From NCBI GenBank assembly GCA_023701085.1, contig JAMPXR010000003.1, forward strand, positions 1 through 20,892: DNA of 20,892 nt. Reading direction: 5' to 3'. Below, piece by piece: positions 1 through 13,238 of the stretch (position 1 is the stretch's first letter; the number at the start of each line of letters is the position of its first letter). The stretch comes from Ramlibacter sp. (GTDB taxonomy: Bacteria; Pseudomonadota; Gammaproteobacteria; Burkholderiales; Burkholderiaceae_C). A model generated the notes under the pieces. That model worked only from the letters and a program-made list of their open reading frames with translations, had not been told where the DNA came from and made no database searches. Position numbers and translations under genes: made by a program.

Positions 1-170
1 AAGCCGACGTGGTGGGCGGGCCCTACTACTACGCCAATGGCTCGACTTGCCTGGGCGCGCAGTGCACGGTGCGAAATGTGAGCGGCACCAACGGAGACGT
101 GACCTCCGCGGGCCTGATCGCCGAAGAAAGCGAGGCCAACAACGCGGCCGGAGCCGCAATTTCCTTCTAG
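1..170 (+). CDS. 3' end of an unrecognised gene upstream of the secretion operon (partial)
   Basis: The frame beginning at base 3 is open from the window edge to a TAG at 168-170, giving the last 55 residues of a protein whose start lies outside the window. The tail is rich in Gly, Asn, Ser and Ala, contains a short Tyr run (PYYYANGS), two cysteines four residues apart (CLGAQC) that could form a disulfide, and ends in AAISF. Lack of charged patches and the Gly/Asn/Thr bias suggest an exported or surface protein, but I do not recognise the family. It lies 22 bases upstream of gspG on the same strand with no hairpin between, so it may be the preceding gene of the operon, perhaps a secreted substrate or another pilin-like subunit. 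This last idea is inference only. Confidence 0.55.
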   Translation, partial: ADVVGGPYYYANGSTCLGAQCTVRNVSGTNGDVTSAGLIAEESEANNAAGAAISF

Positions 171-192
171 CACAACCGATCGAGATTCCCGC

Positions 193-648
193 ATGCGGAC
201 CTTACAGAAGCAGCCGAAGCACAGCCAACGCTTGGGACGTGCGGCCCCGCCAACCGGCTTCACCTTGATCGAACTGCTGGTGGTGATCGTCATCATTGGC
301 CTGCTCACCGCGGTGGTGGGGCCGCGTCTCTTTTCACAGATAGGCAAGTCGGAGCAGAGCGCAGCCATGGCACAGATCGACTCATTTGCCAAAGCATTGG
401 ATGCTTATCGCTTCGACACGGGTCATTATCCGACGACGGAGCAAGGGCTCCAGTCCTTGTTCGTCAGGCCGCAGGGAGAGAGCAAATGGAACGGGCCCTA
501 TCTGCAAAAGAAAGTGCCGCCTGATCCCTGGGGCAAGCCCTATACCTACCGTTCGCCGGGGCAAGGCGGCGATTTCGACTTGCTGTCCTTCGGCAAGGAT
601 GGCCAGCTCGGTGGCGACCAAGAAAATGCGGACCTGTCGTTCCGCTAA
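193..648 (+). CDS. gspG: Type II secretion system major pseudopilin GspG
   Basis: This 151-residue protein matches GspG along its length. A basic leader of 22 residues ends in Gly and is followed by FTLIELLVVIVIIGLL, the class III prepilin cleavage site (cut between Gly22 and Phe23, with Glu at +5) and hydrophobic assembly helix. After it come the family hallmarks: YPTTEQGLQSL, WNGPYL, VPPDPWGKPY and the C-terminal SFGKDGQLGGD region, which in known GspG proteins binds calcium. Subunits assemble into the periplasmic pseudopilus that pushes substrates through the secretin. Length agrees with the family, allowing for the long leader. No strong Shine-Dalgarno precedes the ATG. The next gene, gspF, starts 15 bases downstream. 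A prepilin peptidase would have to be supplied from elsewhere in the genome. Confidence 0.93.
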   Translation: MRTLQKQPKHSQRLGRAAPPTGFTLIELLVVIVIIGLLTAVVGPRLFSQIGKSEQSAAMAQIDSFAKALDAYRFDTGHYPTTEQGLQSLFVRPQGESKWNGPYLQKKVPPDPWGKPYTYRSPGQGGDFDLLSFGKDGQLGGDQENADLSFR

Positions 649-663
649 GGAAACCCGGGACTC

Positions 664-1908
664 ATGAGTTCGATGGAGGTCACATCAGCCAAAAGCATCG
701 CCGCGGACGGCGTGCGCCTGAAGGTCAGCCGGGGCACAACCGATGTTTGGCACAGGTATCCCGGTCTTTCAGCCGCGCAAGCGACAGTGGTTGCCCAACG
801 AGCCGGATGGCGCGTGCTCGAAACCGAGGCCATGCCAGAAGCGGCCGCAAGAATGGAACGCGGGCTGGGGTTGCGTGTTCGGACGCGGCGCTTCCAGTTG
901 CTGCTGTTCTCGCAGGAACTTCTCACGCTCCTCGAAGCAGGGCTGAATCTCACGGAAGCACTGGAAACGCTGAAGGCAAAAGCCCGCGCGGGCGCGGAGC
1001 TCGGCACCTTGTCTCAGATCGTGAGCGCGGTGCGTGAGGGCCGGCCCTTCTCCGATGTGCTGCAAGGCATGCCCCACTCCTTCCCCGAAGTCTATGTGGC
1101 CACGGTCCGCGCCAGTGAGCGAACTGGAACGCTGCCTCAGGCATTGCAGCGCTTCGTCGCCTATCAGCAGCAGTTCGACGCCTTGCACCGAAAGGTCGTC
1201 TCGGCTGCGATCTACCCTGCGATGCTGCTGGTAGTCGGAACATTGGTGGTGCTGTTTCTCCTGGGTTTTGTGGTACCCCGTTTCGCATCCGTCTACGAGT
1301 CCTCCGGCCGCGACATTCCCGCCCTGTCCCGCGCGTTGCTGTGGCTCGGGCGCATCCTTCACGAGCACGCCTGGCTGGCATTTGGCTGTGCGGTCGTGGG
1401 GGTTGCCGGTAGCGTAACCGCATGGCGATCCGACCAGGCGCGGCACCGCCTCGTGGACATGCTTCTCTCGCTGCCCGGCCTGCGCGAGCGGGTCGCCTTG
1501 TTCCGGCTGAGCCGTTTTTACCGCGCGACGAGTCTGCTGCTCGCTTCCGGTATCGCATTGCCGCGGGCATTGGGGATGGTCGCCGGACTGCTCGGGGGTC
1601 AGCAGCGAGTTGCCCTCGCGCTTGCCAAGACACAGCTCGAACAGGGTTTACCGGTTTCGCAGACCCTGGTGGCGAACGGGTTGGCCTCGCCCGTGGCCGA
1701 GTCGCTGGTCAGGGTGGGCGAACGGTCCGGTCAACTGGCTCAGATGCTGGAGCGAACGGCCGGTTTCCATGACGAGGAACTGGCGCGCTGGATCGATTCG
1801 GCGTCCCGGCTCATGGAGCCACTGCTGATGCTGTTGATCGGTCTGATCATCGGCACGGTCGTGATTCTCATGTATCTGCCCATATTTGACCTGGCGGGGA
1901 CGTTCTAG
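664..1908 (+). CDS. gspF: Type II secretion inner-membrane platform protein GspF
   Basis: The 414-residue product has the GspF/PilC organisation. A cytoplasmic N-terminal part (1-70, rich in basic residues) is followed by two repeats of the T2SSF domain, each leading into membrane segments. The first repeat starts near QLLLFSQELLTLLEAGLNL and reaches the helix at VSAAIYPAMLLVVGTLVVLF; a second helix lies around HAWLAFGCAVVGVAG; the second repeat starts near LFRLSRFYRATSLLLASGI and ends in the last helix (MEPLLMLLIGLIIGTVVIL). GspF links the GspE ATPase to pseudopilus assembly at the inner membrane. The start is ATG 664, preceded by an AAGGAA-type ribosome site around 648-653. The gene ends just before gspE, with a one-base gap. 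Length is typical of the family. Confidence 0.93.
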   Translation: MSSMEVTSAKSIAADGVRLKVSRGTTDVWHRYPGLSAAQATVVAQRAGWRVLETEAMPEAAARMERGLGLRVRTRRFQLLLFSQELLTLLEAGLNLTEALETLKAKARAGAELGTLSQIVSAVREGRPFSDVLQGMPHSFPEVYVATVRASERTGTLPQALQRFVAYQQQFDALHRKVVSAAIYPAMLLVVGTLVVLFLLGFVVPRFASVYESSGRDIPALSRALLWLGRILHEHAWLAFGCAVVGVAGSVTAWRSDQARHRLVDMLLSLPGLRERVALFRLSRFYRATSLLLASGIALPRALGMVAGLLGGQQRVALALAKTQLEQGLPVSQTLVANGLASPVAESLVRVGERSGQLAQMLERTAGFHDEELARWIDSASRLMEPLLMLLIGLIIGTVVILMYLPIFDLAGTF

Positions 1909-1909
1909 C

Positions 1910-3469
1910 ATGACCGCGCTTACAGCCGAGGCCCTGGGCGTGCGTGTGTTGAGCATGGACGAACTGCGCACCATGACGCCGCAGTGGCAAGCCGTGTCGT
2001 ACTCCGAGGCAGGCGCACGCAAAGTTCTGATCTTGCGTGATGGCAGAAACGTTCATTGGCTCGTCATGGTCGATTTCGCCGATGCGGCGACCGAAACCTG
2101 GGGTCGCAGGCGTTGCGCGCGCTTGAGAGTCGCGTTGCCCGAGCTTGCCGCAGTCGGCGAAGAGGATCTCCTTGCTTTGCTGGCGCAGCACGAGCATGGG
2201 CTACGCGCGATGGATGTAGTTGAACCGGGCAGCGCCGCAGGTGATGTCGAGGAAGTCGCAGCAGTGATCACGTTGGCCGCGCTCGAAAACGAGACGAGCG
2301 CAGTGGTGCGCCTGGTCAACTCCACGCTGTACGATGGACTCAAACTGAACGCGAGCGACATCCATCTGGAGTGCGATCCGCAGGGGCTGCGCATCCTCTA
2401 TCGGCTCGATGGCGTGTTGGTGCCCATTACGGAAATGCCCGGGCTCGAGATGGCCGATCAGGTGATCTCCCGCATCAAGGTAATGGCCGAACTCGACATC
2501 GCAGAGCGGCGAGTGCCGCAGGACGGCCGTTTCAAAGTGCGCGTCGGCGAGCGCGAAGTCGACTTTCGCGTCTCCGTCATGCCCAGCGTTTTCGGTGAAG
2601 ATGCCGTGCTACGGCTTTTGGACCGAAAAGCGCTGGCGGAAGAGGGCCAGGGCTTGACCCTGGACAAACTGGGTTTGAGCCATGATCTTGTCAAGGCGGC
2701 TCGCCGGCTCGCGCATAAGCCTCACGGGATGCTGCTGGTGACGGGGCCGACCGGATCGGGCAAGACCACCACGCTGTACGCGACCATTTGCGAGATCCAT
2801 ACCGGGCGCGACAAGATCGTCACCATCGAGGACCCCGTGGAGTATCGGCTCCCACGCGTGCTGCAAATCCCGGTCAACGAAAAGAAAGGCCTGACGTTCG
2901 CCCGCGGTTTGCGCTCGATTCTTCGGCACGACCCGGACAAGATCATGGTGGGCGAAATTCGAGACAACGAGACGGCGCAGATCGCGGTTCAGGCGGCCCT
3001 GACGGGTCATCTGGTACTCACCACCGTGCACGCCAACAATGTGCTGGATGTGCTGGGGCGTTTCCTTCACATGGGCGTGGACGGGTACAGCCTTGCGTCG
3101 GCGCTTAATGGCATCCTGGCACAACGGCTCCTTCGGATCAACTGCGACCACTGCACGCAGGCCGCAACGCCCGACCAGGACTTGCTCGAGGACTTGGGTT
3201 TGGCCTCGAGCCGCACGCGGGGCTGGAACTTTCTCGAAGGCAAAGGGTGCGGTCACTGCCGCGGAACCGGATACAAGGGTCGCCGTGCCGTAGCCGAAGT
3301 ATTGGTGCTCGACGACGAATTGAGAGAGCTGATCGCGCAGCGCGCGCCAGCCTCAGTGATCAAGCAGGCGGCGACACGGGCCGGGTGGATGAGCTTGACC
3401 GATTGCGCACTTGGATGTGCAGCCCGGGGTGAGACGACTTTGGCGGAGGTCGCGCGTGTGGCCGGCTGA
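1910..3469 (+). CDS. gspE: Type II secretion assembly ATPase GspE
   Basis: This 519-residue cytoplasmic hexameric ATPase powers pseudopilus assembly. Visible motifs in order are Walker A GPTGSGKTT (279-287), the Asp-box segment EDPVEY (Asp308), Walker B-like IMVGEIRDNE (Glu349) and the His-box TGHLVLTTVHANN. A C-terminal tetracysteine zinc module follows, with pairs C412/C415 and C447/C450, as in true GspE. The N-terminal domain that would bind GspL is short and diverged. I chose ATG 1910 because GGCGGGGA precedes it at 1893-1900; an in-frame ATG at 1886 would overlap gspF by 23 bases. The zinc-binding spacer between the cysteine pairs is 31 residues. Everything needed for catalysis appears intact. 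Confidence 0.93.
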   Translation: MTALTAEALGVRVLSMDELRTMTPQWQAVSYSEAGARKVLILRDGRNVHWLVMVDFADAATETWGRRRCARLRVALPELAAVGEEDLLALLAQHEHGLRAMDVVEPGSAAGDVEEVAAVITLAALENETSAVVRLVNSTLYDGLKLNASDIHLECDPQGLRILYRLDGVLVPITEMPGLEMADQVISRIKVMAELDIAERRVPQDGRFKVRVGEREVDFRVSVMPSVFGEDAVLRLLDRKALAEEGQGLTLDKLGLSHDLVKAARRLAHKPHGMLLVTGPTGSGKTTTLYATICEIHTGRDKIVTIEDPVEYRLPRVLQIPVNEKKGLTFARGLRSILRHDPDKIMVGEIRDNETAQIAVQAALTGHLVLTTVHANNVLDVLGRFLHMGVDGYSLASALNGILAQRLLRINCDHCTQAATPDQDLLEDLGLASSRTRGWNFLEGKGCGHCRGTGYKGRRAVAEVLVLDDELRELIAQRAPASVIKQAATRAGWMSLTDCALGCAARGETTLAEVARVAG

Positions 3470-4931
3470 ATCCAGGCGCGGTGGCCTGCTTTGTGTCTAT
3501 CTGGGAGCTCACTCGGCGCAATCGGTGCTGTGGCTTGGTGGCCGGCACATGAAGCAGTCCTTCCGTGCGGTGCCGGTAGGCTGGCGCGACGAGGATGCAT
3601 TGATGGGGGTTCTTGGCAACTGGACACTGGACTCCGAATGGCTCGAGACTGTACGCGGGGCCGGTGAACTGCGTGTCATCATTTCTGATCACTGGCTGGC
3701 GGCAGCGTCGGTGCCCTGGTCGAGCGCGCAGCTCACGGGCAAGAAAGCACGGCAGGACGCGTGGGAGCATCTGAACGCCGCCGGCTATGACGTGTTGCCC
3801 GACGAACAGATATGCCTCGACGATTGCGCTTCCCGGCGGCCGCGACTGGCGTTGGCCTATCCGAGCAGGATTTTGACGGCCCTGGAGCACCTCGCCCGGG
3901 AGTCAGGCGTGCGGTACATCCAGGCGGGCAGTCTCGCAGTTTTGGTCGGCTCGCGATTGCGAGCGATGCGGCCCCGGCCCAAGACCGCCGCGCTGGCGAT
4001 CGTTGAGCCCGGTGACAGGGAGTTGCGTGCCGCCACGTTCGTGAAGCTGGATCCCGCGTGCGAGCGCATCGAAAGGGTTGTCCCGCGAAACATCCGCGCT
4101 GAGTGCGGCGCTGAGTGGCGTGGTTTGGAGCAGGCATGGATGCGGCTGGGATGGGGTGGGCAGGATGAGGCGGCCTCGCACCCGGCGCCCTGTGTGGTCA
4201 TTGACGCCAACCTCGAAGGCGAGCCCTTGCGTGCCGCGACCAAGGCCGCGGCGAGCTTCTGGCTGCCGGTCAGTTGGACCCTATCTCAGGAGGACAGCGC
4301 CACCAATCGTGCGGGATGGATCGAATGGCTCGGGCTGCGGCCCGGGCGTGCAGTTGCACCGCTGGACATCAGGCTCGAACACTCCCCCAAGACGGTTTCT
4401 GGATTCCGGCCTGCGCTCCTGGGTGTACCTATGAGATCCTGGCAAGTTGCTGCAATCGCAGCGGTCGCGGCGGCGACCGTGTGGCTGGCTGGCGAGGCAA
4501 CGGAGCATCGCGAGCGCCTCGCGCTTGTACGCGCCGCCGAGGTCGCCGCACTCGCCCCGCGCACGCCGGTCCCGCCGCTGACCCCGCAGACGCGCGAAAG
4601 ACTCCTAGCCGTCAACCATGTCATCGCTCATCTCAATATCCCCGTCGAGGACGTGCTGCGCGCCATACAGCCACCCGCTGACATTCATGTCGGCCTCATC
4701 GGCCTGGAAGCTTCCGCAGCTGGTGCTCAGCGCTCTGACGGCACTGCGGGACAGCCGCTGCTCAAAGTCATGGCAGAAGCTCCGTCGGCTTTGGACATGA
4801 CGCGTTACGTTTCCTACCTTGGAGGACGCCGTCCGCTAACGCGCGCTGAACTTCTAAAGCATGAGTTCATTAAGACGGGGAATACCGATGCCCCGTATCG
4901 GTTCCATGTGGAAATAGGGTGGCAGCCATGA
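3456..4931 (+). CDS. GspL-like (PilM-PilN style) inner-membrane assembly protein
   Basis: The 491-residue product has a large soluble N-terminal part (about 1-325) with a weak actin-like (PilM/GspL cytoplasmic) flavour: an early LLCVYLGAHSAQSVLWL strand pair and a later AALAIVEPGDRELRAATFV. A single membrane helix follows at about 328-346 (SWQVAAIAAVAAATVWLAG), then a periplasmic coiled region and a ferredoxin-like tail as in PilN/GspL. This single-pass order is that of GspL, which recruits GspE to the membrane. Position directly after gspE supports it. GTG 3456 overlaps the end of gspE by 14 bases; an ATG at 3411 would overlap by 59. The stop overlaps the next start (ATGA). Sequence similarity to textbook GspL is not obvious, so the call rests on topology and neighbours. 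Confidence 0.72.
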   Translation: MWPAESRRGGLLCVYLGAHSAQSVLWLGGRHMKQSFRAVPVGWRDEDALMGVLGNWTLDSEWLETVRGAGELRVIISDHWLAAASVPWSSAQLTGKKARQDAWEHLNAAGYDVLPDEQICLDDCASRRPRLALAYPSRILTALEHLARESGVRYIQAGSLAVLVGSRLRAMRPRPKTAALAIVEPGDRELRAATFVKLDPACERIERVVPRNIRAECGAEWRGLEQAWMRLGWGGQDEAASHPAPCVVIDANLEGEPLRAATKAAASFWLPVSWTLSQEDSATNRAGWIEWLGLRPGRAVAPLDIRLEHSPKTVSGFRPALLGVPMRSWQVAAIAAVAAATVWLAGEATEHRERLALVRAAEVAALAPRTPVPPLTPQTRERLLAVNHVIAHLNIPVEDVLRAIQPPADIHVGLIGLEASAAGAQRSDGTAGQPLLKVMAEAPSALDMTRYVSYLGGRRPLTRAELLKHEFIKTGNTDAPYRFHVEIGWQP

Positions 4932-5539
4932 GCGTGGCCCTTGCGGCCTGGTCGCTTCGCCGTCTCGCGTTTCGTACGGTGCGGTGGCTGGGGGTCGGTG
5001 GCGTGACACTGGTCGCCCTGGGTTTACTGCTGGCTATCGCCTGGGCAACCGATCTGCATTTTTCCGAGCAGCTTGCCATGGAGCAGCGGCGCGCCGCGAA
5101 GATCGCCTCACGCGCAGGGACGAGTGATGCAGCGTCGGAGTTGCGCGTTACGACAGTGACGCAGGAACTCCATGCTTTCGACAGGCGGATGCCCGCTGCG
5201 GAGGATGCGATGCAGGTGCTGGCGGACCTGTTCTCGTTGGCCGGGAAGCACCGGCTGGTGCTGGCGCGCGGCGATTACCAGCTTGAGTCGGACGACAAGA
5301 GCGCTTTGCTGCGTTTGCAAATCACGCTCCCGCTCAAAGGCGACACGAAATCGATCCACGGTTTCGTGCAGGACGCGCTGCTGGCTAATCAAACTCTGGC
5401 ATTCGACGCACTGACATTCAAGCGCGAACATTTGAACAGCGAAGAAGCCGAAGCCAAGGTGCAGATGTCTTTGTACACGCGACGGTTCGCAAACGTGTCA
5501 CAAGACGCTGTGGTCTTCACGGCGAGGACTTCGCCGTGA
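4928..5539 (+). CDS. PilO/GspM-like inner-membrane secretion protein
   Basis: A 203-residue protein with a basic N-terminus, one membrane helix (about residues 19-39, GWLGVGGVTLVALGLLLAIA-like) and a periplasmic region that begins with a helix rich in Gln, Arg and Ala and ends in a compact alpha/beta tail (ALLRLQITLPLKG and FDALTFKRE). That is the topology of PilO and GspM, which pair with PilN or GspL to form the periplasmic collar linking ATPase and secretin. The gene directly follows the GspL-like gene; its ATG 4928 forms an ATGA overlap with that gene's stop, implying translational coupling. An upstream in-frame ATG at 4919 is less likely. There is no recognisable catalytic motif. The identification depends on topology and order. 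Confidence 0.68.
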   Translation: MSVALAAWSLRRLAFRTVRWLGVGGVTLVALGLLLAIAWATDLHFSEQLAMEQRRAAKIASRAGTSDAASELRVTTVTQELHAFDRRMPAAEDAMQVLADLFSLAGKHRLVLARGDYQLESDDKSALLRLQITLPLKGDTKSIHGFVQDALLANQTLAFDALTFKREHLNSEEAEAKVQMSLYTRRFANVSQDAVVFTARTSP

Positions 5540-6078
5540 AGACCAATCGCCTGCTGCTGACTTTGTTGCTTGCCGCATCGGCCGCCGCCGCATTGTGGTT
5601 GCCACCCACGACAAGCGAGGTGGTCGCACCTGTTGCGCGTCCGGGCCAGGGCGGTCGAACAGCGGCTGGCGCCGCCCCGCGCGAGAAACCTGCTGTGTCG
5701 GGACGTCTGGACCGACTTGTGCCGCGGACAGCTTCCGACGAAGGAACGGCAGGGCCGTTCGCTGTACCGACGTGGGTTGCGCGGAAAGTGGCTGCGGTGC
5801 CGGTGCAAGCAGTGTCCGCCTCTGTCGCCGAGCCGGCCCCGCCGCAGGCGCCACTGGCTCCGTTCAAAGTGATCGGCCGGTACGAGGAGGGAGGTCGGGC
5901 GGGCGTCTTTCTTGAGCACCAGCAAAGAACGATTGTGGCGCGCGGCGGCGAGCAGCTTACGCCCGAATGGAAGGTAGATAGCGTCGAGGGTGGACGTGTC
6001 GTGATCGAGTACCTGCCGTTGTCGCAGCGGCAGACCTTGGAATTGACCAGCTCCGCAGCGGGGAAGGTGACTGAATGA
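5536..6078 (+). CDS. PilP/GspC-like periplasmic linker protein
   Basis: The 180-residue product begins with an N-terminal hydrophobic stretch (residues 5-22, signal peptide or membrane anchor), continues with a Pro/Ala/Arg-rich linker to about residue 105, and ends with a small beta-rich domain. That domain carries PFKVIGRYEEGGRAGVFLEH, then QRTIVARGGEQL and VVIEYLPLSQRQTLEL. The pattern 'xFKxIGxxxxxxxxxVFL...VxxGxxL...V..I....V.I.YLPL' is shared by GspC homology-region and PilP domains, which contact the N0 domain of the secretin. The start is GTG 5536, forming a GTGA overlap with the preceding stop; GCGAGG at 5522-5527 may be the ribosome site. Its stop overlaps the secretin start (ATGA). 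It could equally be called GspC-like or PilP-like. Confidence 0.68.
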   Translation: MKTNRLLLTLLLAASAAAALWLPPTTSEVVAPVARPGQGGRTAAGAAPREKPAVSGRLDRLVPRTASDEGTAGPFAVPTWVARKVAAVPVQAVSASVAEPAPPQAPLAPFKVIGRYEEGGRAGVFLEHQQRTIVARGGEQLTPEWKVDSVEGGRVVIEYLPLSQRQTLELTSSAAGKVTE

Positions 6079-8450
6079 TCGAGCAGTATCCGAGTCGGTG
6101 GGCGGCGGGAGTTGGGGTTTGCCGGTGGCTGGTGTTCGTACTCGCCGCGTCGCTGTTGGCCGCGTGCGGGGCGATGCAGTCGTTCAAGCAAGGAAATCAA
6201 TATCTGGAGGAGGGCAAAGTCGCCGAGGGCTTGGCCAAGCTCGAAGAGGCCGTGCGTCTGGACCCGAAAAATCTGGAATACCGAATGGGCCTGGCCTCGC
6301 GCCGGGCCGGCGTGGTGAACCAGCTGCTTGCGGGTGCCGAGGCGCACCGGCGGGCAGGCCGTCTGTCGGAAGCCGAGAAAGGCTTTCGACAGGCGCTTGT
6401 CTTCGATCCGGAAAACGTGCAGGCGCACCAAGAGCAGAGAGCGATCGTCGCCGAGCGCAAGCATCACGCGCTGGTGACGGAAGCCGAGTCGATCTTCAAA
6501 CGTGGCAAGGCCGACGATTTGGCCTTGGCTCTGGAAAAGCTGCGCCCTGTGCTCCAGGAGAATCCCAAACAGCGCGAGGCCCTGAACCTGAAGGAGCGCA
6601 TCGATACCGAACGCGCGAAGGAAAGGCGCGCCGAAGCGCGACTGGCAGCCACCTATCGCCAGCCCATCACGCTCGAATTTCGCGATGCGCCGTTGAAGTC
6701 GGTGTTCGACGTGATCGCCAGGCTGTCGGGCCTGAATTTCTTCTTCGACAAGGACTTGCGCCCCGACTTGAAGGCCAGCATTCTCGCCAAGAATACGACG
6801 GTCGAGGACGCGGTGCGGCTGCTACTCGTGACCAACCAGCTGGAACAGAAGATTCTGAATGAAAATTCCGTCCTGATTTATCCCAACACGCCGCAAAAGC
6901 AGAAGGAGTATCAGTCACTTTCGATCCGGAGTTTTTTCCTGGCCAACGCGGACGTCAAGGCGGTTTCGAACACGATCAAGACACTCGTAAAAACCAAGGA
7001 TTTGGTCATCGACGAGCGCCTCGGACTCCTCATCATGCGCGACACGCCGGAAGCCATTCGCCTCGCGGAGCGAATCGTCGCGTTGCAGGACCTGAGTGAT
7101 CCCGAAGTGATGCTCGAGGTGGAGATCCTGGAAATCAAACGCTCCCGGCTTCTGGAACTGGGCATCAGCTGGCCCGGCCAGCTTACGTTCTCCCCCATCG
7201 TCCCGGCAGAATCCGTGTTGTCGGTAGCCAGCTTGCGAGGAATCAACAGCAGCGCTATCCAGGTCACCGGGGCGAGCCTGGGCGTAAACGCGCGCAAAGA
7301 GGACCAGGAGGGAAACATCCTCGCAAACCCCCGAATCCGCGTGCGCAACAAGGAAAAGGCCAAGGTCCTCATCGGCGAAAAGGTGCCGGTTATCACGACG
7401 ACATCGAACGCGAACTTCGTGTCCGAGTCGGTCACCTATGTGGACGTGGGCCTGAAGCTTGAAGTCGAACCCAGCATCTATTTGGACGAGGAGGTCGCGA
7501 TCAAGATCAACCTCGAGGTTTCCAGCCTGGTGCGCGAGGTGCTCAGCAAGTCCGGAACTCTCTCGTATCAGATTGGCACGCGGGGTGCGAGCACGGTGCT
7601 TCGCCTGAAGGACGGCGAAACGCAGATCCTCGCGGGGCTGATCAGCGATGAAGAGCGGTCCAGTGCCAGCAAGGTTCCCGGCGTCGGTGAATTGCCCCTT
7701 GTGGGCCGCCTGTTCGGCAACCGGAAGGATGACAGTCAACGCAGTGAAATCCTGCTCTCGATCACGCCGCGCGTGGTACGGTCCATCCGCCGGCCTGACC
7801 TATTGGCCGCCGAGTTCGAATCCGGCACTGAAGCAAGCATAGGTGCGATGTCGCTCAGGCTTGCCGCGGTGGACACTTCGGTTTCTGCCGCGGTTACGGG
7901 CGCTGTTTCAGCGCCGACCGGCGGGGCCAGAGCCGCCGTGGCCACGGCAAGAGTGCCGGCCGGCATTTCGTCCACAGGCCCGGGCTCGACGCCGGCCGAA
8001 TCCGTGCCAAGCCAGGCATTACCGAGTTCTCTCACCCTGAACTGGGCCGCTCCGCCGCAAGTCAAAGTAGGCGAGCAGTTCAGCGCGGTGCTGCGAGTGA
8101 ACAGCCAGGCGAGCCTGCGCGGCTTGCCGCTGCTGGTCGGCTTCGATCCCCAGCTGTTTCAGGTCGTGAGCGTGATCGAAGGCGACTACTTCAGGCAGGC
8201 TGGCGGACGCTCCAGCTTCAGCCAGCGGGTCGATCCCGCCCAGGGCAAGATCTTCGTCGCCGCGGTCCGGCAGGCGTTTTCGGGAACGGACAGCGGCATA
8301 AACGGAACGGGCTCGGTGGTCACGGTAACTCTTAAGGCGATCAGGCCGGCGGCCCAGGCACGCATCCAGCTTCTTTCCGCCACACCCGAGCCGCCGCTTG
8401 CTTCGACAGTGCCGGTGCCAATGGATCATGTGATCCGCGTGGTGCCTTGA
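6075..8450 (+). CDS. gspD: Secretin with TPR-like N-terminus and C-terminal cohesin-like domain
   Basis: This 791-residue protein forms the outer-membrane channel. A hydrophobic signal ends in lipobox LAAC (Cys31), so it is probably a lipoprotein. Residues 35-170 hold TPR-like helices (QGNQYLEEGKVAEGLAKLEE, FRQALVFDPEN). The N0/STN domain starts near 197 (PITLEFRDAPLKSVFDVIA) and one N1-type domain follows (SFFLANADVKAVSNTI). The secretin core includes NILANPRIRVRNKEKAKVLIGEKVPV and the signature VPGVGELPLVGRLF (534-547), closing with RSEILLSITPRVV. An Ala/Thr/Pro-rich linker (about 575-645) then leads to a beta domain (about 650-788) with VKVGEQFSAVLRVNS, LVGFDPQLFQVVSV and GTGSVVTVTLKA, the pattern of cohesin domains. 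Canonical GspD has neither the lipobox-TPR part nor a cohesin. ATG 6075 overlaps the previous stop. Confidence 0.88.
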   Translation: MIEQYPSRWAAGVGVCRWLVFVLAASLLAACGAMQSFKQGNQYLEEGKVAEGLAKLEEAVRLDPKNLEYRMGLASRRAGVVNQLLAGAEAHRRAGRLSEAEKGFRQALVFDPENVQAHQEQRAIVAERKHHALVTEAESIFKRGKADDLALALEKLRPVLQENPKQREALNLKERIDTERAKERRAEARLAATYRQPITLEFRDAPLKSVFDVIARLSGLNFFFDKDLRPDLKASILAKNTTVEDAVRLLLVTNQLEQKILNENSVLIYPNTPQKQKEYQSLSIRSFFLANADVKAVSNTIKTLVKTKDLVIDERLGLLIMRDTPEAIRLAERIVALQDLSDPEVMLEVEILEIKRSRLLELGISWPGQLTFSPIVPAESVLSVASLRGINSSAIQVTGASLGVNARKEDQEGNILANPRIRVRNKEKAKVLIGEKVPVITTTSNANFVSESVTYVDVGLKLEVEPSIYLDEEVAIKINLEVSSLVREVLSKSGTLSYQIGTRGASTVLRLKDGETQILAGLISDEERSSASKVPGVGELPLVGRLFGNRKDDSQRSEILLSITPRVVRSIRRPDLLAAEFESGTEASIGAMSLRLAAVDTSVSAAVTGAVSAPTGGARAAVATARVPAGISSTGPGSTPAESVPSQALPSSLTLNWAAPPQVKVGEQFSAVLRVNSQASLRGLPLLVGFDPQLFQVVSVIEGDYFRQAGGRSSFSQRVDPAQGKIFVAAVRQAFSGTDSGINGTGSVVTVTLKAIRPAAQARIQLLSATPEPPLASTVPVPMDHVIRVVP

Positions 8451-8462
8451 GCGAGAGCGCAG

Positions 8463-8975
8463 ATGATTGTCGACGGGCCACTTCGCCGCGATATACGCGT
8501 GCGGCCGCGTACAGGCGGATTCACTTTGGTCGAGTTGCTGGTGACGCTGGCGATTATGGGAATTCTGGCGACAGTGACGGTTCCGCTCGCGCAGATTTCG
8601 GCGCAGCGTCAAAAGGAACGCGAATTAAGAGCCGCGCTGGCGCAGATAAGGGATGCAATCGACGCGTACAAACGGGCTGGCGAGCAAGGGCGGATTCTGG
8701 TCAAGCTGGGCGAGAGCGGTTATCCGCGCACTCTGGACGAGCTGTGGCAGGGCGTTTCGGATCAGCGCAGCCCAGACCGCCGCAAGATTTACTTTCTCAG
8801 GGCTATTCCCAGGGACCCTATGCACGAGGACTATTCGGTATCTTCAGTGGAAAGCTGGGGGCTGCGCAGCTACTCCTCCCCGCCTGACGATCCATCGCCT
8901 GGCGAGGATGTGTACGACGTTTACTCCAAGTCGGCAAAAACGGGTTTGGATTCCTTGCCCTACCGGCAGTGGTGA
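8463..8975 (+). CDS. GspG-like pseudopilin, second copy
   Basis: A 170-residue protein with a basic 19-residue leader ending GG, then FTLVELLVTLAIMGILATV: a class III prepilin cleavage site with Glu at +5 and the N-methyl helix. The soluble part has EEL-type helices (RELRAALAQIRDAIDAYKRA), YPRTLDELW, and AIPRDPMHEDY, corresponding to the 'YP-x-T-x-x-x-L' and 'VPxDPWG' positions of GspG. It lacks the GspG calcium-site tail GKDGxxGG but ends in VYDVYSKSAKTGLDSLPYRQW, whose SxxxGLDxxPY is a shorter analogue. It begins 13 bases after the secretin stop. Its likely role is a further pseudopilus subunit, minor or alternative. It is not recognisably GspH, I, J or K. Confidence 0.83.
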   Translation: MIVDGPLRRDIRVRPRTGGFTLVELLVTLAIMGILATVTVPLAQISAQRQKERELRAALAQIRDAIDAYKRAGEQGRILVKLGESGYPRTLDELWQGVSDQRSPDRRKIYFLRAIPRDPMHEDYSVSSVESWGLRSYSSPPDDPSPGEDVYDVYSKSAKTGLDSLPYRQW

Positions 8976-8981
8976 GCGCTC

Positions 8982-9359
8982 ATGATAAGTCGCACCAAGG
9001 GATTCACACTGATCGAGCTTCTGGTGGTGATGGCGATTGTTGCCCTGCTCTCGAGCGTTGCGCTGCCACGTTATCTCGCCTCGGCGGAAAGAGCCAAGGA
9101 GACGGCCCTGAAGGAAAACCTGAAGGCCATCCGCGTTTCCCTGGATCGCTTCCGCGCGGACAAAGGTCGCTGGCCCAAGCGCTTGGAAGAGCTGGTGGAG
9201 CAACGATATTTGTCGCATGTGCCGGTCGATCCGATGACCGAGCAGGCAGACACCTGGACCGTCGAGGCGTCGAGAGATGCGGGCGAGGAAGGCGTCGCTG
9301 ACGTGAAGAGCGGCGCATCCGGAACCACCAGTGACGGCAGGCGTTATGCGTCATTCTGA
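8982..9359 (+). CDS. GspG-like pseudopilin, third copy (short)
   Basis: The 125-residue product has a six-residue basic leader plus Gly7, then FTLIELLVVMAIVALLSSVALP, a strong prepilin cleavage site with Glu +5. The helix ends in PRYLASAERAKETALKENLK, the GspG/PilE-type continuation, followed by DKGRWPKRLEELVEQRYLSHVPVDPMT. The last segment aligns with the GspG YPTxxxxL...VPxDPWG region. The C-terminus is Gly/Ala/Asp-rich (DAGEEGVADVKSGASG) and ends in RRYASF. It begins six bases after the preceding pseudopilin, with GGTGAG upstream as a ribosome site. It is a small, simple pseudopilin and the shortest of the four. Which canonical subunit it replaces cannot be told from sequence. Confidence 0.85.
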   Translation: MISRTKGFTLIELLVVMAIVALLSSVALPRYLASAERAKETALKENLKAIRVSLDRFRADKGRWPKRLEELVEQRYLSHVPVDPMTEQADTWTVEASRDAGEEGVADVKSGASGTTSDGRRYASF

Positions 9360-9933
9360 AGAACGGAAAAACAACAGGGTTGGCTACCGGCAGCCCTTGC
9401 GGCGCAGGCAGGGCGGCTTCAGCTATCTGTGGCTGCTGCTGGTGATCGCGCTGATCGCCGCCGGTTCGAGCACGGTGCTGGAGCTGCAACAGACCGTGGC
9501 ACGCAGGGACCAGGAGAGGGAGTTGCTGTGGATCGGACGCCAGTTCGTCGCGGCGCTGGAGAGTTATCGCACGGCGCAATCCTACGAGGTGGGTTCCATC
9601 CACGGAGCGGCATCGCCAGGTTCCGATCTCCGCCACTATCCGGCTTCGCTCGAAGAGCTGCTCAAGGATCCGCGCTTTCCGGGGATCAAACGGCACTTGC
9701 GCAGAATTTTCCGCGATCCACTGATGGGTAACACCGAGTGGGGCTTGATTCGAAGAGCCGGGCGGATCGTGGGCATCCATTCGCTGTCCCGCGAAAAGCC
9801 GATCAAGCAGGATGGGTTCGAGCCGAACGAAGCGAGCTTCGCGGGAGCGGAGCATTACAGCAATTGGGTCTTCGTGGCCCCGGTCGCAGTCCACTCATTG
9901 CAACCCGGTGCCGGTATACGCACGATCCCGTGA
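9346..9933 (+). CDS. Atypical pseudopilin-like protein lacking Glu+5
   Basis: A 195-residue protein with an Arg-rich leader ending in RRRQGG, then FSYLWLLLVIALIAAGSSTV. The Gly-Phe cleavage point and the hydrophobic helix are pilin-like, but position +5 is Trp rather than Glu, as tolerated only in tip-type subunits such as GspK. The rest resembles the other copies: RDQERELLWIGRQFVAALESYR, HYPASLEELLKDPRF, and RRIFRDPLMGNTEWGLI. That is, the DP motif of GspG is retained, though GspK-specific domains are absent. The start at ATG 9346 overlaps the previous stop by 14 bases; GTG 9331 is an alternative. It probably caps or initiates the pseudopilus; this is inference from the missing Glu. Confidence 0.75.
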   Translation: MRHSEERKNNRVGYRQPLRRRQGGFSYLWLLLVIALIAAGSSTVLELQQTVARRDQERELLWIGRQFVAALESYRTAQSYEVGSIHGAASPGSDLRHYPASLEELLKDPRFPGIKRHLRRIFRDPLMGNTEWGLIRRAGRIVGIHSLSREKPIKQDGFEPNEASFAGAEHYSNWVFVAPVAVHSLQPGAGIRTIP

Positions 9934-9943
9934 TCTGGAGGCG

Positions 9944-10861
9944 ATGATGAATCTGAATCGCCACGAAAGAAGTCGTTCCCGCGTACGCGTCGCGCTGCTG
10001 TCATTGCTGCTGCCCCTCTGTGCGCAAGGCCAGCAAGGCAACGAGGAGCTCCCCGAGGCGTTACGCAATATTCCGCGCGCCGGCGAGTCGTGCAAAAACG
10101 ACGCGCCGGACGTCGCCGCGACGCGCACTTCCCGAACTGCCGCTGCCGCGCCCGGGCTTGCGTGCATGGTCACCATGAGCCAAGTGCGTGGCGACATCGA
10201 ATCTGGCGCTATCCTGATTGTCGACGTGCGCCAAGACAGCCAGCACCAGCGCTTTCACATCCCGGGTTCGGTCAATTTTTCTGCCACCAGCCTGGCGCAC
10301 AAACCTGCGTTGCGCGGCAAGGCGCTGCTGCTCGTGGGAGACGGAAAAGGCGAGCGCGAACTGCATGCGGGCTGCTCGCTCCTGAAGCAATCTGGATTTG
10401 CCTCGGTACGTGTTCTGGCCGGCGGAATGATTTCCTACCTCGCCAGTGGTGCGCCCCTGCGCGGGCGCGTACCTTCAGCATATGAACTCGCTGACCTCGA
10501 TGCCGGCCAGCTCTGGGCCGAAAGCAAATTCGTGGAGAACCTTCTTGTCATCGCCGGCAACGCGGCGGACTACTCGGATCATTTACCCTACGCCACAGCC
10601 GTGAACCCGTTGACGCCGGCGTCATTGGCCGCCGTGCTGGACCGGCGCCAGAAGGAGATCAAAGGAGCTGTTTCGGCCGTGGTGCTCGCCGGGGCGCCCG
10701 TCACTGAAGAAACGAGCTACGCCGCGCTGGCGACAGCTGTTGCGCCGGTGCCGTTGCTGACCTACAGGGACTCGGCGGCCGCGCTGGGCCGCTTTGTCGC
10801 GGGCCAGAAGGCTTCGTGGACCGCCCGGGCGCGCGGGCCGAAGCGGCCGCGGTGCGGGTAA
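9944..10861 (+). CDS. Exported rhodanese-like protein with non-canonical active site
   Basis: The 305-residue product begins with a basic N-terminus and hydrophobic core (VRVALLSLLLPLCAQG), a signal peptide. A rhodanese fold follows: ILIVDVR (Asp94-Arg96), FHIPGSVNFSA (around 104-114), ALLLVGDGKGER (about 128-138) and VRVLAGGMISYL. The active loop, which in functional sulfurtransferases reads C-x-x-G-x-R, is here V-G-D-G-K-G-E-R, with no Cys; the nearest cysteine is C144. A second, more divergent alpha/beta half (about 175-290) contains LLVIAGN and AVVLAGAP and could be a degenerate second rhodanese. ATG 9944 follows the CTGGAG ribosome site. Gene order places it in the secretion operon, 10 bases after the last pseudopilin. 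A binding or sensing role seems likelier than sulfur transfer. Confidence 0.75.
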   Translation: MMNLNRHERSRSRVRVALLSLLLPLCAQGQQGNEELPEALRNIPRAGESCKNDAPDVAATRTSRTAAAAPGLACMVTMSQVRGDIESGAILIVDVRQDSQHQRFHIPGSVNFSATSLAHKPALRGKALLLVGDGKGERELHAGCSLLKQSGFASVRVLAGGMISYLASGAPLRGRVPSAYELADLDAGQLWAESKFVENLLVIAGNAADYSDHLPYATAVNPLTPASLAAVLDRRQKEIKGAVSAVVLAGAPVTEETSYAALATAVAPVPLLTYRDSAAALGRFVAGQKASWTARARGPKRPRCG

Positions 10862-10877
10862 GTGGAGTGAGCTGCCA

Positions 10878-11726
10878 ATGATGGGCAGGCGTTGTTTTTT
10901 GGGGCTGGTAGCGGCGGCGCCCGTCGTGAGCGTAGGCGTGCCGCAAGCCAGCTTGCGAGCCGTCCGCCTGAACGTGCTGATGACGAATCCGTTCGGCCAT
11001 GATCTGAAGCAGCAGACCTTATGGATGTACCTCCCGGTCCTCGCCGGCTCCCACACCCGAGTGATACATCAGGAGGCGTCAGGAGGTCACTCCTTCCTCA
11101 GCGACGCCTTGGGCCACAATATCCTCGAGCTAAGGCTCGATCGCCTAGCGCCTTATGCGCACCGGGTCTTCAACGTTCTTGTTTTGCTTGAGAGCGTCCA
11201 TGATCAGCAAGGCGCGAAAGGTCCGCCGGAACCTGGAATGTGGCTGGGCCCGCAACGCAATATCGAATCGGACCACCCGCTCATCGCGGAAGCGGCAGCG
11301 CCATTGCGGCGGCCAACCTCGCGCGAAAGCGCGCTGGAGGCCTATCGTTGGGTGGCTTCGCGTATGACGTACACGGGCTATCTCAGTGAAGATTCAGGCG
11401 CACTGATCGCCTTTCGGACACGTCGGGGCGACTGCACGGAATACTCTTCGCTGCTCGTGGCGCTATGCCGGGCTTGTGGCGTGCCTGCACGCAGGGTCGG
11501 GGGTTACGTGTCGGATCGCAGCATCGCACCACGCCCTTCGGATTTCCACGATTGGGCCGAAGTCTGGATCGAAGGTCGCTGGCGCATAGCGGATGCACAG
11601 CTGCAGAACTGGTTGACCGCAGAGGAACGCTATATCCCATTGCGCTATTACTGGGACTACCCGATCAACCCCCTGGGACTGGCCCATCGGTACCGCATCT
11701 TTGGGGAGGCGACGGTCAACTTATAG
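10878..11726 (+). CDS. Transglutaminase-like protein with twin-arginine signal
   Basis: The 282-residue product carries MMGRRCFLGLVAAAPV at its N-terminus, a plausible twin-arginine (Tat) signal, although the Arg pair is followed by CFLG rather than the classical xFLK. The core domain is a transglutaminase/cysteine protease fold with the expected triad: Cys186 in RRGDCTEYSSLL, His224 in DFHDWAEVWIEG and Asp239 in RIADAQLQNW. The N-terminal part (30-150) looks like the beta-rich TG-associated domain. The family includes amide-forming cross-linkers as well as peptide hydrolases, so the activity is not fixed by sequence. GGAG at 10864-10867 lies 10 bases before ATG 10878. It is the last gene of the operon and may process or link components or substrates. 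Confidence 0.8.
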   Translation: MMGRRCFLGLVAAAPVVSVGVPQASLRAVRLNVLMTNPFGHDLKQQTLWMYLPVLAGSHTRVIHQEASGGHSFLSDALGHNILELRLDRLAPYAHRVFNVLVLLESVHDQQGAKGPPEPGMWLGPQRNIESDHPLIAEAAAPLRRPTSRESALEAYRWVASRMTYTGYLSEDSGALIAFRTRRGDCTEYSSLLVALCRACGVPARRVGGYVSDRSIAPRPSDFHDWAEVWIEGRWRIADAQLQNWLTAEERYIPLRYYWDYPINPLGLAHRYRIFGEATVNL

Positions 11727-12064
11727 GGAGAGAGGAAGCAGGAGCTGGCCTATCGCCCCTGCGCGATCTCGCTGCCGCCTTTCGCATTCAGCGTGAAGCC
11801 GAGGCCCGCCCGGTGGTCGTATAGCGTTCGATCCATCGAGCAGGCGACGCGGTCGACTCGCCGCCTCGCCGCGCCCACGCCGAGAGCACGAGAGCACGGC
11901 CAAGCCGACATCGATCAGCGGCGCCCGCGGACCCACAGCCGGCACTGGCCCTGCAGCCTCCTCGGGAATCAAGGCGGCCTCGGCATGAGGTGGCGGCGTG
12001 GACTGCTCGGGAAGCGAGGTGATACGTTCCGTCACCCATCTCTCAGGTATGTACCAGAATGCTT
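11727..12064. other. 338-base stretch without a convincing gene; possible gene remnant
   Basis: No plus-strand gene with clear starting features is visible. On the minus strand three frames are open over much of the stretch. One contains IPERWVTERITSLPEQ and PLIDVGLAVLS; a different frame holds a 53-codon reading from ATG 11911 to TAG 11750 that ends in LYDHRAGLGFTLNAKGGS. Neither has a recognisable family or ribosome site. An 8-base tandem repeat (GAGAGCAC, 11882-11889 and 11890-11897) sits at a point where a frame change would occur. The picture fits decayed coding sequence but could be chance in GC-rich DNA. No rho-independent terminator is seen after the transglutaminase gene. Confidence 0.3.
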
Positions 12065-12141
12065 TGGTAGGGCGTGTTGGACTTGAACCAACGACCAAAG
12101 GATTATGAGTCCTCTGCTCTAACCAACTGAGCTAACGCCCC
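12065..12141 (-). tRNA. tRNA with CAU anticodon (tRNA-Met, or tRNA-Ile2)
   Basis: The minus strand folds into a 77-base cloverleaf with the CCA end encoded (12065-12067). The acceptor stem is GGGGCGT with ACGCCCT, giving six standard pairs and a G-U at position 1-72, with discriminator A. The D stem GCTC/GAGC has the loop AGTTGGTTA. The anticodon stem-loop is AGGA-CTCATAA-TCCT and the T arm GTTGG-TTCAAGT-CCAAC. The loop CTCATAA is common to elongator Met and to Ile2, whose C34 is modified to lysidine by TilS. The variable loop and T-loop (TGGTC, TTCAAGT) look like the Ile2 of gamma-proteobacteria. From sequence alone the choice is open; Met is given as the conservative call. Confidence 0.9.
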
Positions 12142-12161: not shown

Positions 12162-12232
12162 CGAGTGGCCCCGACGGCCCGCAGGCCGGCCGAACCGGCT
12201 CCGCCGCCCGCGACTGGCTAAGATGCGCTGCC

Positions 12233-13219
12233 ATGGAACTGGCGATCAACACCCCCGCCTACAGCCGCTCGTCGCACGGGGTGCGCCGTTACGTGTCCAA
12301 TGTGCTGCGCTACCTGTCCTGGCCGGGGCCCATCCGCTCGATTCCCGAGCCGCCGGTTGCGGGCGCCTTCCGGCTATGGGACCTGTGCCGGCGCGGCAGC
12401 GAGGACGCCGTCCTGTGGACGCCCTGCCTGCGCGGGCCGGTGCGGGCGCGGCACCATGTCGTCACTGTGCACGACTGCCTGAACGTGGAGTACGTGTACC
12501 GAGACGGCGTCAAGCGCAGGCTGTTCATGAAATTGACCGGCGCCATCCTGCGCAATGCGCAGGCCGTGGTGGCCATTTCCCATGCCACGCAGGCCGCGAT
12601 TCTGAGGAATTACGAGCTGCCGCCCGGCAGGATCCGCGTGATCCCTTCGGGCTTTTCTTCCGTGGCCGGCGAGGAGAAAACCGGCAGCAGCCATGCGGCC
12701 GCCCCCTTCGTCCTGTGGGTGACCAACACCCTGCCGCACAAGAACTGCGATCGCATGTGCGAGGCCATCGCTTCCAGCAGGCTGTCCGGCCTCGGGATGA
12801 CCGTTTGCGTGGTCGGGTCGCTTCCCAGTGAGTCCCTCGCCCGCTGCCTGTCCAGGGGCGTCAACGTCGAGGTGCACGACTGGGTCAGCGATTCGATGCT
12901 TTCCAAGCTGTATTCGAGCTGCGAGTTCCTCGTGGCCCCCAGCCTGGACGAGGGGCACAACCTGGCGGTGGCCGAAGCCGTGCAGCACGGCGCGAACGTG
13001 CTGTGCTCCGACATCGCGGTGCACCGGGAATACTATGCCGGCATGGTCCGGTTCTTCGATCCGCGTGACCTGGAGTCCATGGTCGACCAGCTCGATCGGG
13101 CCCTCGAATCGCCCCGCAACTGGAACTTGACCAAGTTCGACGAGGGGATGCGCTCGTTTCGCGATGTCGCGGCCGACTACCGGACGCTGTTCGAGGGGCT
13201 CGGGTCCCGCGCGGCATAG
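12233..13219 (+). CDS. GT4-type glycosyltransferase
   Basis: This 328-residue protein has the two-domain GT-B layout of glycosyltransferase family 4. The N-terminal half includes AYSRSSHGVRRYVSNVL (a GxxRY-type acceptor-side segment) and HHVVTVHDCLNVEY. A middle motif, VAISHATQAAILRNY...RIRVIPSGFSS, is typical of GT4 enzymes. The second half holds PFVLWVTNTLPHKN, FLVAPSLDEGHNLAVAEAV (the donor-binding E-x7-E motif) and GANVLCSDIAVHREY. It would transfer a sugar from a nucleotide-sugar donor, probably in envelope or exopolysaccharide synthesis; acceptor unknown. ATG 12233 has no clear Shine-Dalgarno. It stands alone, convergent with hrcA and separated by 19 bases without a convincing terminator. 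GC content resembles the right-hand half. Confidence 0.85.
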   Translation: MELAINTPAYSRSSHGVRRYVSNVLRYLSWPGPIRSIPEPPVAGAFRLWDLCRRGSEDAVLWTPCLRGPVRARHHVVTVHDCLNVEYVYRDGVKRRLFMKLTGAILRNAQAVVAISHATQAAILRNYELPPGRIRVIPSGFSSVAGEEKTGSSHAAAPFVLWVTNTLPHKNCDRMCEAIASSRLSGLGMTVCVVGSLPSESLARCLSRGVNVEVHDWVSDSMLSKLYSSCEFLVAPSLDEGHNLAVAEAVQHGANVLCSDIAVHREYYAGMVRFFDPRDLESMVDQLDRALESPRNWNLTKFDEGMRSFRDVAADYRTLFEGLGSRAA

Positions 13220-13238
13220 CGCGCACCGCGCACCGCGG

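Follow-up and report, generated by a model that had tools for sequence, protein, structure and literature searches.

An operon of a separate type II secretion-like lineage in a Ramlibacter genome and its linkage, in relatives, to Rhs and Ig/Fn3 genes

If an operon carries type II secretion genes in a pilus-like order, is it a decayed type II secretion system (T2SS), a partial duplicate of one, a hybrid with a pilus, or a machine of a lineage of its own? This question is raised by contig JAMPXR010000003.1 of Ramlibacter sp. (assembly GCA_023701085.1), which was analysed as a whole (20,892 nucleotides, hereafter the window) and belongs to a metagenome-assembled genome (MAG) that is 81% complete and consists of 543 contigs. 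The list of open reading frames (ORFs) contains twelve frames, all on the + strand between 193 and 11726 and mostly overlapping or abutting. Together with profile searches, it confirms the order claimed by a sequence-only reading of this DNA: gspG-gspF-gspE, three genes termed L, M and C, a secretin gene, three further pseudopilin genes, and genes for two exported accessory proteins, now identified as a rhodanese-fold and a transglutaminase-fold protein. On balance, the operon is probably a horizontally acquired set of genes for a complete export machine that belongs to a separate T2SS-like lineage; in the window's subclade, the cargo of this machine would be a giant Rhs protein and a partner with immunoglobulin-like and fibronectin type III (Ig/Fn3) domains.

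The first step is to ask which families the core parts belong to. GspG (193..648) passes the TIGR01710 cut-off for the T2SS major pseudopilin (166.6 vs 88.85 bits), while GspF, GspE and the secretin match their own families strongly, yet remain below the equivalog cut-offs. The GspF/PilC-type platform protein (664..1908; PF00482) scores 239 bits against TIGR02120, with a cut-off of 424. The GspE/PilB-type assembly ATPase (1910..3469; PF00437, 406 bits) scores 471 against a cut-off of 630 for GspE and 444 against 676 for PilB, and a Walker A motif and two CxxC pairs were read by eye; ATG 1910 was chosen as its start in a frame that is open from TTG 1886. For the lipoprotein secretin (6075..8450; PF00263), the scores are 154 against 284 for PilQ, 142 against 351 for GspD, and 93 against 250 for MshL, so that all are below cut-off and PilQ is the top whole-protein profile. 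This protein starts with a lipobox, carries tetratricopeptide repeats at its front and has a cohesin domain (PF00963) at its rear. A lipobox candidate was found by pattern in 24 of 26 secretin rows, several of which look spurious, and no useful literature on cohesin-domain secretins turned up.

The secretin gene is followed by those for pseudopilins H1 (8463..8975; PF07963, 33 bits), H2 (8982..9359; PF07963, 34.3 bits), and the GspK-like H3 (9331..9933). As read by eye, a prepilin cleavage motif with Glu5 is present in G, H1 and H2, and H3 keeps a cleavage-type motif in which the residue at +5 is other than Glu in 17 of 17 aligned rows. GspK likewise has a non-Glu residue at +5. None of GspC, GspL, GspM and the minor pseudopilins H-K was found above its profile cut-off, and L, M, C and H3 of the window gave no Pfam match at E 0.01. 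Two prepilin peptidase matches lie on other contigs of the MAG.

The lineage of the system was assessed with trees of its ATPase (74 rows in a quick version, 64 in a careful one) and its secretin (70 and 66 rows). The careful ATPase tree leaves out L059 (a different ATPase), L066, L106 and L110, together with six duplicate rows (L104, L105, L107, L114, L117, and L118); the careful secretin tree leaves out L063, L095, L096 and L097. In the careful trees, the ATPase of the system forms one clade of its own with 43 rows (42 besides the window; support 100/100), the secretin does the same with 46 rows (45 besides the window; support 100/99), and GspE, PilB, GspD, PilQ and MshL make up other supported clades, separate from the window's system. 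The subclade that contains the window has support of 100/98 in the ATPase tree and 98/89 in the secretin tree. The operon thus represents a separate T2SS-like lineage outside the Gsp and Pil clades, and with its twelve frames open the proposal of a distinct lineage rather than a decayed T2SS is borne out. No order among the clades is claimed, since the tree tool warns of long branches. Related phyla are represented by Desulfamplus only, as a long basal branch, and the named rows do not include the Ralstonia systems discussed below. Three ATPases of mannose-sensitive haemagglutinin (MSH) systems group with one unlabelled row (L116) in the quick ATPase tree, and secretins of 860-904 aa from two congeners and one other genome stand outside all named clades in the quick secretin tree.

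A second set of gsp genes elsewhere in the genome had been named as a possible sign of partial duplication, and such genes do exist: the MAG also encodes an ordinary gspD-gspE and a pilQ. However, in the trees the ordinary GspE of the MAG falls with Gsp, its PilQ lies in the PilQ clade, and its partial GspD groups with GspD (quick tree only). Because the other GspE sits in the Gsp clade, the operon is a further machine, and a partial duplicate of a T2SS was rejected. Two further frames of the MAG (963 and 966 aa), on two other contigs, match the T2SSE family with ~384 bits each.

The gene order is conserved. Fourteen loci were found by secretin alone, and twelve (L032-L043) were compared gene by gene; the synteny count was made without L044 (a 3.6-kb contig) and L045 (Desulfamplus, 31%). 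All twelve genes occur in the window's order in nine of the twelve loci (L032, L033, L035-L038, and L041-L043). The exceptions are L034, in which no transglutaminase gene was detected, L040, where gspG is missing from its place, and L039, a contig of 11 kb that has neither G nor F at this position. All twelve genes are also present on a plasmid of Eleftheria, and plasmid copies were found in 25 of 72,556 plasmid records (E 1e-40). A relative of the secretin (E < 1e-70) is encoded in 16 of 40 related genomes and in 8 of 24 within the genus; the closest copy is 51% identical. No rhodanese gene was found by blastp in loci L046-L062.

The new part of the finding is the linkage of this operon to Rhs and Ig/Fn3 genes. 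The DNA around the secretin gene was examined, to a distance of at most 18 kb in either direction, in 11 of the 12 named loci, with all 14 secretins above the GspD cut-off in the same genomes, taken with equal flanks, as controls; Rhs frames were called by phmmer (E below 1e-10). An Rhs frame lies near the operon in 9 of 11 subclade loci vs 0 of 14 canonical gspD loci (Fisher p 2.7e-5, with loci treated as independent though they share ancestry), and where the region is unbroken it has the same orientation as the operon. In the two misses (L040 and L041), the contig ends within the Ig/Fn3 gene; among the nine, L043 retains 176 aa of Rhs at the end of its contig, and the Rhs region of L034 is broken, with pieces on both strands. 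With L035, which lay outside the flank test and has no Rhs in its available DNA, the count becomes 9 of 12. Other pilus or secretin loci in other genomes gave 0 of 20 (L078-L097, 20-kb stretches), and a chance linkage was rejected on the strength of these and the canonical gspD loci. Among further loci of the subclade, Rhs is present in Eleftheria (L128) and G286, and none was found in the available stretch of G147 (L183).

The Ig/Fn3 gene, upstream of gspG, is found in nine of the twelve loci, disrupted in one of them (L034) and cut by contig ends in two (L040 and L041). Where it is complete, it abuts or overlaps gspG; the seven complete proteins are 1,327-1,350 aa in length and have a near-identical stretch in common after a signal-like start. 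Such starts were judged by eye to be present in all seven Ig/Fn3 proteins and in six of the seven Rhs proteins. The Rhs cores align and then stop before a C-terminal tail of ~105-335 residues in 18 of 21 pairs, and scanning of five Rhs proteins detected the toxin domains PT-HINT and Ntox8 in L139 and PT-HINT in L150. Six of the seven gaps between Rhs and Ig/Fn3 genes hold a same-strand ORF of at least 124 aa, which is weak evidence of a gene in GC-rich DNA, and the seventh, in Eleftheria, holds an annotated ankyrin-repeat gene. In L033 (3340-3927) and L035 (3339-3929), a small protein with a PEP-CTERM-like C-terminal end (by eye) is encoded directly upstream of gspG, at the position of the Ig/Fn3 gene in other loci.

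This gene linkage predicts that the machine is a dedicated exporter of giant Rhs/Ig exoproteins. Several observations weigh against the prediction. The flanks of both sets of loci are shortened in places by contig ends, three loci of the twelve (L033, L035, and L039) lack an Ig/Fn3 gene, the alignment continues into the tail in the three pairings of the Rhs proteins of L139, L144 and L150, and three of the five scanned Rhs proteins have no toxin domain. Outside the subclade, an Rhs frame was found in only 5 of 30 loci (L058, L130, L132, L184, and L189), the flanks of which are mostly shorter. The MAG, at its 81% completeness, has no RHS repeat match. Lastly, the window's own protein upstream of gspG, of which the contig start leaves a C-terminal tail of 55 aa (3..170, + strand), resembles neither the Ig/Fn3 nor the Rhs proteins of relatives: nothing below E 0.1 was found among proteins of the compared loci, and the 399 genomes of the order gave the tail itself and one weak match (E 0.008, 32%). 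Since the 5' end of the window is truncated and no Rhs repeat was found in the MAG, the cargo in this genome is inferred from relatives.

The same linkage would also be seen if the operon encoded a general second T2SS for hydrolases or other exoenzymes, and Rhs and Ig/Fn3 genes were mere frequent neighbours on shared mobile islands. This is consistent with the varied neighbours outside the subclade, which include an M4 metallopeptidase, a GH18 chitinase with a carbohydrate-binding module (L062), and an FG-GAP protein (L046), and with the multicopper oxidase that the Geobacteraceae 'Pul' system, according to the part of the literature at hand, is reported to secrete. However, within the subclade these two families are found at one position in different genera, are encoded on the same strand as the operon wherever the region is unbroken, and are missing from all 14 canonical gspD loci, and a general enzyme exporter is judged to be unlikely.

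The genes between gspE and the secretin gene bear on whether the operon is a T2SS and pilus hybrid, as had been supposed. The PilO/GspM-b-like M (4919..5539) matches PilO (hhalign 46%; PDB PilO, E 6e-4), and Pfam PilO is found in 5 of 16 members of its family alignment, the window's own M not being among them. C (5536..6078), placed by its family alignment at the PilP/GspC position, matches PilP weakly (hhalign 12%) and has one N-terminal hydrophobic stretch and, by eye, no lipobox. L (3456..4931; start GTG 3456 chosen in a frame open from TTG 3411) appears to be a fused cytoplasmic and membrane/periplasmic platform protein. In 12 loci outside the subclade, this position holds two separate genes, which match the two halves of L (hhalign 99.1% and 99.5%); the second of these genes has a weak match to PilN (hhalign 14%), and a single gene takes this position in three further loci outside the subclade (L050, L056, and L057). 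By hhalign, L itself matches neither PilM from six loci nor the single Escherichia coli GspL tried, and its profile gave no match to solved structures. Comparison with GspC, GspL and GspM of E. coli gave hhalign values of at most 0.6%, which is a weak test with one sequence each. The likeness to pilus genes thus extends to M and, weakly, to C, and the operon is better described as a separate branch than as a hybrid.

A surface pilus of the MSH or type IV kind, with the GspG homologue as pilin, would account for the PilO-like M, the PilM-N-O-P-Q-like order, and a secretin that scores highest with PilQ. It is nonetheless improbable, as GspG is above the cut-off for T2SS pseudopilins, no PilT-type second ATPase is among the twelve genes, and both ATPase and secretin fall outside PilB, PilQ and MshL. 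That transfer left behind a copy which is now silent or decaying, as the lack of any copy closer than 51% in 24 congeners and of an Rhs repeat in the MAG might suggest, is very hard to reconcile with twelve open frames and the presence of key residues.

The accessory pair stands behind the pseudopilins in the window, as it does in its proposed Rhs-linked subclade. All 12 aligned rows of the transglutaminase-fold protein (10881..11726; PF01841, 82 bits; start ATG 10881 chosen in a frame open from TTG 10794) keep Cys, His and Asp, and all 12 have RR near the start, which is signal-like. In the exported rhodanese-fold protein (9947..10861; PF00581, 41 bits), no Cys was seen by eye in what we take to be the active loop in any of 12 rows, although the rows share other cysteines. 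A Methylomonas plasmid (L205, 1-18774) carries the same pair, whose neighbours there are a beta-helix gene of 13.9 kb, Ig-like genes and a gene for a cohesin-domain protein. Over the 36.7 kb read, the annotation lists no T2SS gene, although the gene table describes itself as incomplete. This arrangement suggests that the pair may work on giant exoproteins.

In the proposed mechanism, the GspE-type ATPase would drive GspF to assemble four pseudopilins into a short filament (G, H1 and H2, with H3 at the tip), the prepilins having been cut by a peptidase encoded elsewhere. L, M and C would connect this motor to the secretin, which, being a lipoprotein, may need no separate pilotin to get to the outer membrane. 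Folded, Sec-delivered periplasmic proteins would then be moved across the outer membrane; in the subclade these are probably the giant Rhs protein with its toxin-like end and the ~1,340-aa Ig/Fn3 partner, and the transglutaminase-fold enzyme and rhodanese-fold protein may act on them in the periplasm. A narrower version, with rather less than an even chance of being correct, is a dedicated exporter of polymorphic toxins in which a Sec-delivered Rhs toxin, neutralised by the product of a neighbouring immunity gene, would cross the outer membrane along with an obligatory Ig/Fn3 partner of ~1,340 aa, be processed by the transglutaminase-fold enzyme, and be held at the pore by the cohesin domain of the secretin.

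The last step of the proposal is that the gene set was acquired horizontally next to a tRNA-Met gene (tRNA-Met(cat), 12065..12141, - strand; ARAGORN). Third-position GC (GC3) of the twelve genes is 0.68-0.77 vs 0.91-0.92 in nadK, recN, and a flanking gene read by eye as dynamin-like. From window position 13237 onwards lies a core block with hrcA (by eye), NAD kinase and recN (Pfam), and in all ten congeners read this block is within ~100 bases of the same tRNA-Met. No DNA matching window positions 1-12060 was found beside the tRNA-Met in any of these ten, so that the tRNA separates variable DNA from the block that congeners have in common with the window. Because of its deviant GC3 and the lack of matching DNA at the congener tRNA-Met, the operon looks foreign, and it was apparently acquired horizontally at this place. 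In congener G005, an exact 42-base copy of the tRNA-Met 3' end occurs at a distance of ~1 kb from the tRNA, a trace of the kind left by integrating elements; the same search found no second copy of the tRNA 3' end in the window. The window's recN is 75-84% identical to that of congeners (near-full-length matches) and 42-50% identical to that of other families of the order. Therefore, the contig belongs to the genus, and a mis-binned contig was rejected. Between the tRNA-Met and the hrcA-like gene lies a glycosyltransferase gene (12233-13219) with a GC3 of 0.884, near that of the core genes, and the stretch 12166-13236 has no match at that site in the ten congeners read.

The operon is non-canonical, as the sequence-only reading held, although the machine itself is not new and has already been reported in outline. 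It has GspG, GspF, GspE and a secretin in common with the canonical T2SS (E. coli K-12 gspC-O) and differs in gene order, in the GspC and GspH-M components, which profiles do not recognise, and in its separate clade. With unknown genes between gspE and the secretin gene and few core genes, its layout fits, by description, the unorthodox T2SS or secretion system X, and the secretin is listed in one database entry as 'secretion system X protein GspD-like'. The available passages on the unorthodox T2SS of Ralstonia solanacearum describe seven core genes, one cluster with four hypothetical genes between gspE and gspD, and one cluster that, together with an adjacent rhsB, is absent from some strains (PMC5080846, PMC6428702). 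These passages are silent on whether the two are one and the same cluster, and a rhodanese-transglutaminase pair such as the window has does not come up in them; for Rhs export, the authors look to the type VI secretion system. 'Secretion system X' of Paraburkholderia nodosa has, by name, the same secretin family, and its complete operon is said, in the part of the report available, to be most similar to Ralstonia (PMC5095457); that part gives neither a function or cargo for it nor a test of its lineage. The 'atypical T2SS' Pul/Oxp of Geobacteraceae, likened here by description from part of its report, is likewise a second, non-Gsp T2SS with several pseudopilins (PMC3543383). In the available part of their survey, Denise et al. 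2019 sorted many systems as 'generic' (PMC6668835).

The tables of a polymorphic toxin survey place many toxins with RHS repeats and HINT domains under the export pathway 'T2SS', and the terms 'GspD' and 'secretin' are absent from the 300,000 of its 357,715 characters that were available (PMC3482391). For the toxin step labelled in this way, the Rhs linkage offers a specific machine, and the question is now testable. The 'T2SS' label in those tables reportedly rests on signal peptides. Within the type II secretion family, the operon belongs to a branch that is widespread but has been little studied: of the 399 genomes from the order, 129, counting the one that contains the window, have a match to secretins of the wider lineage (E 1e-100 or better), and thus an uncharacterised export route may be common among these bacteria.

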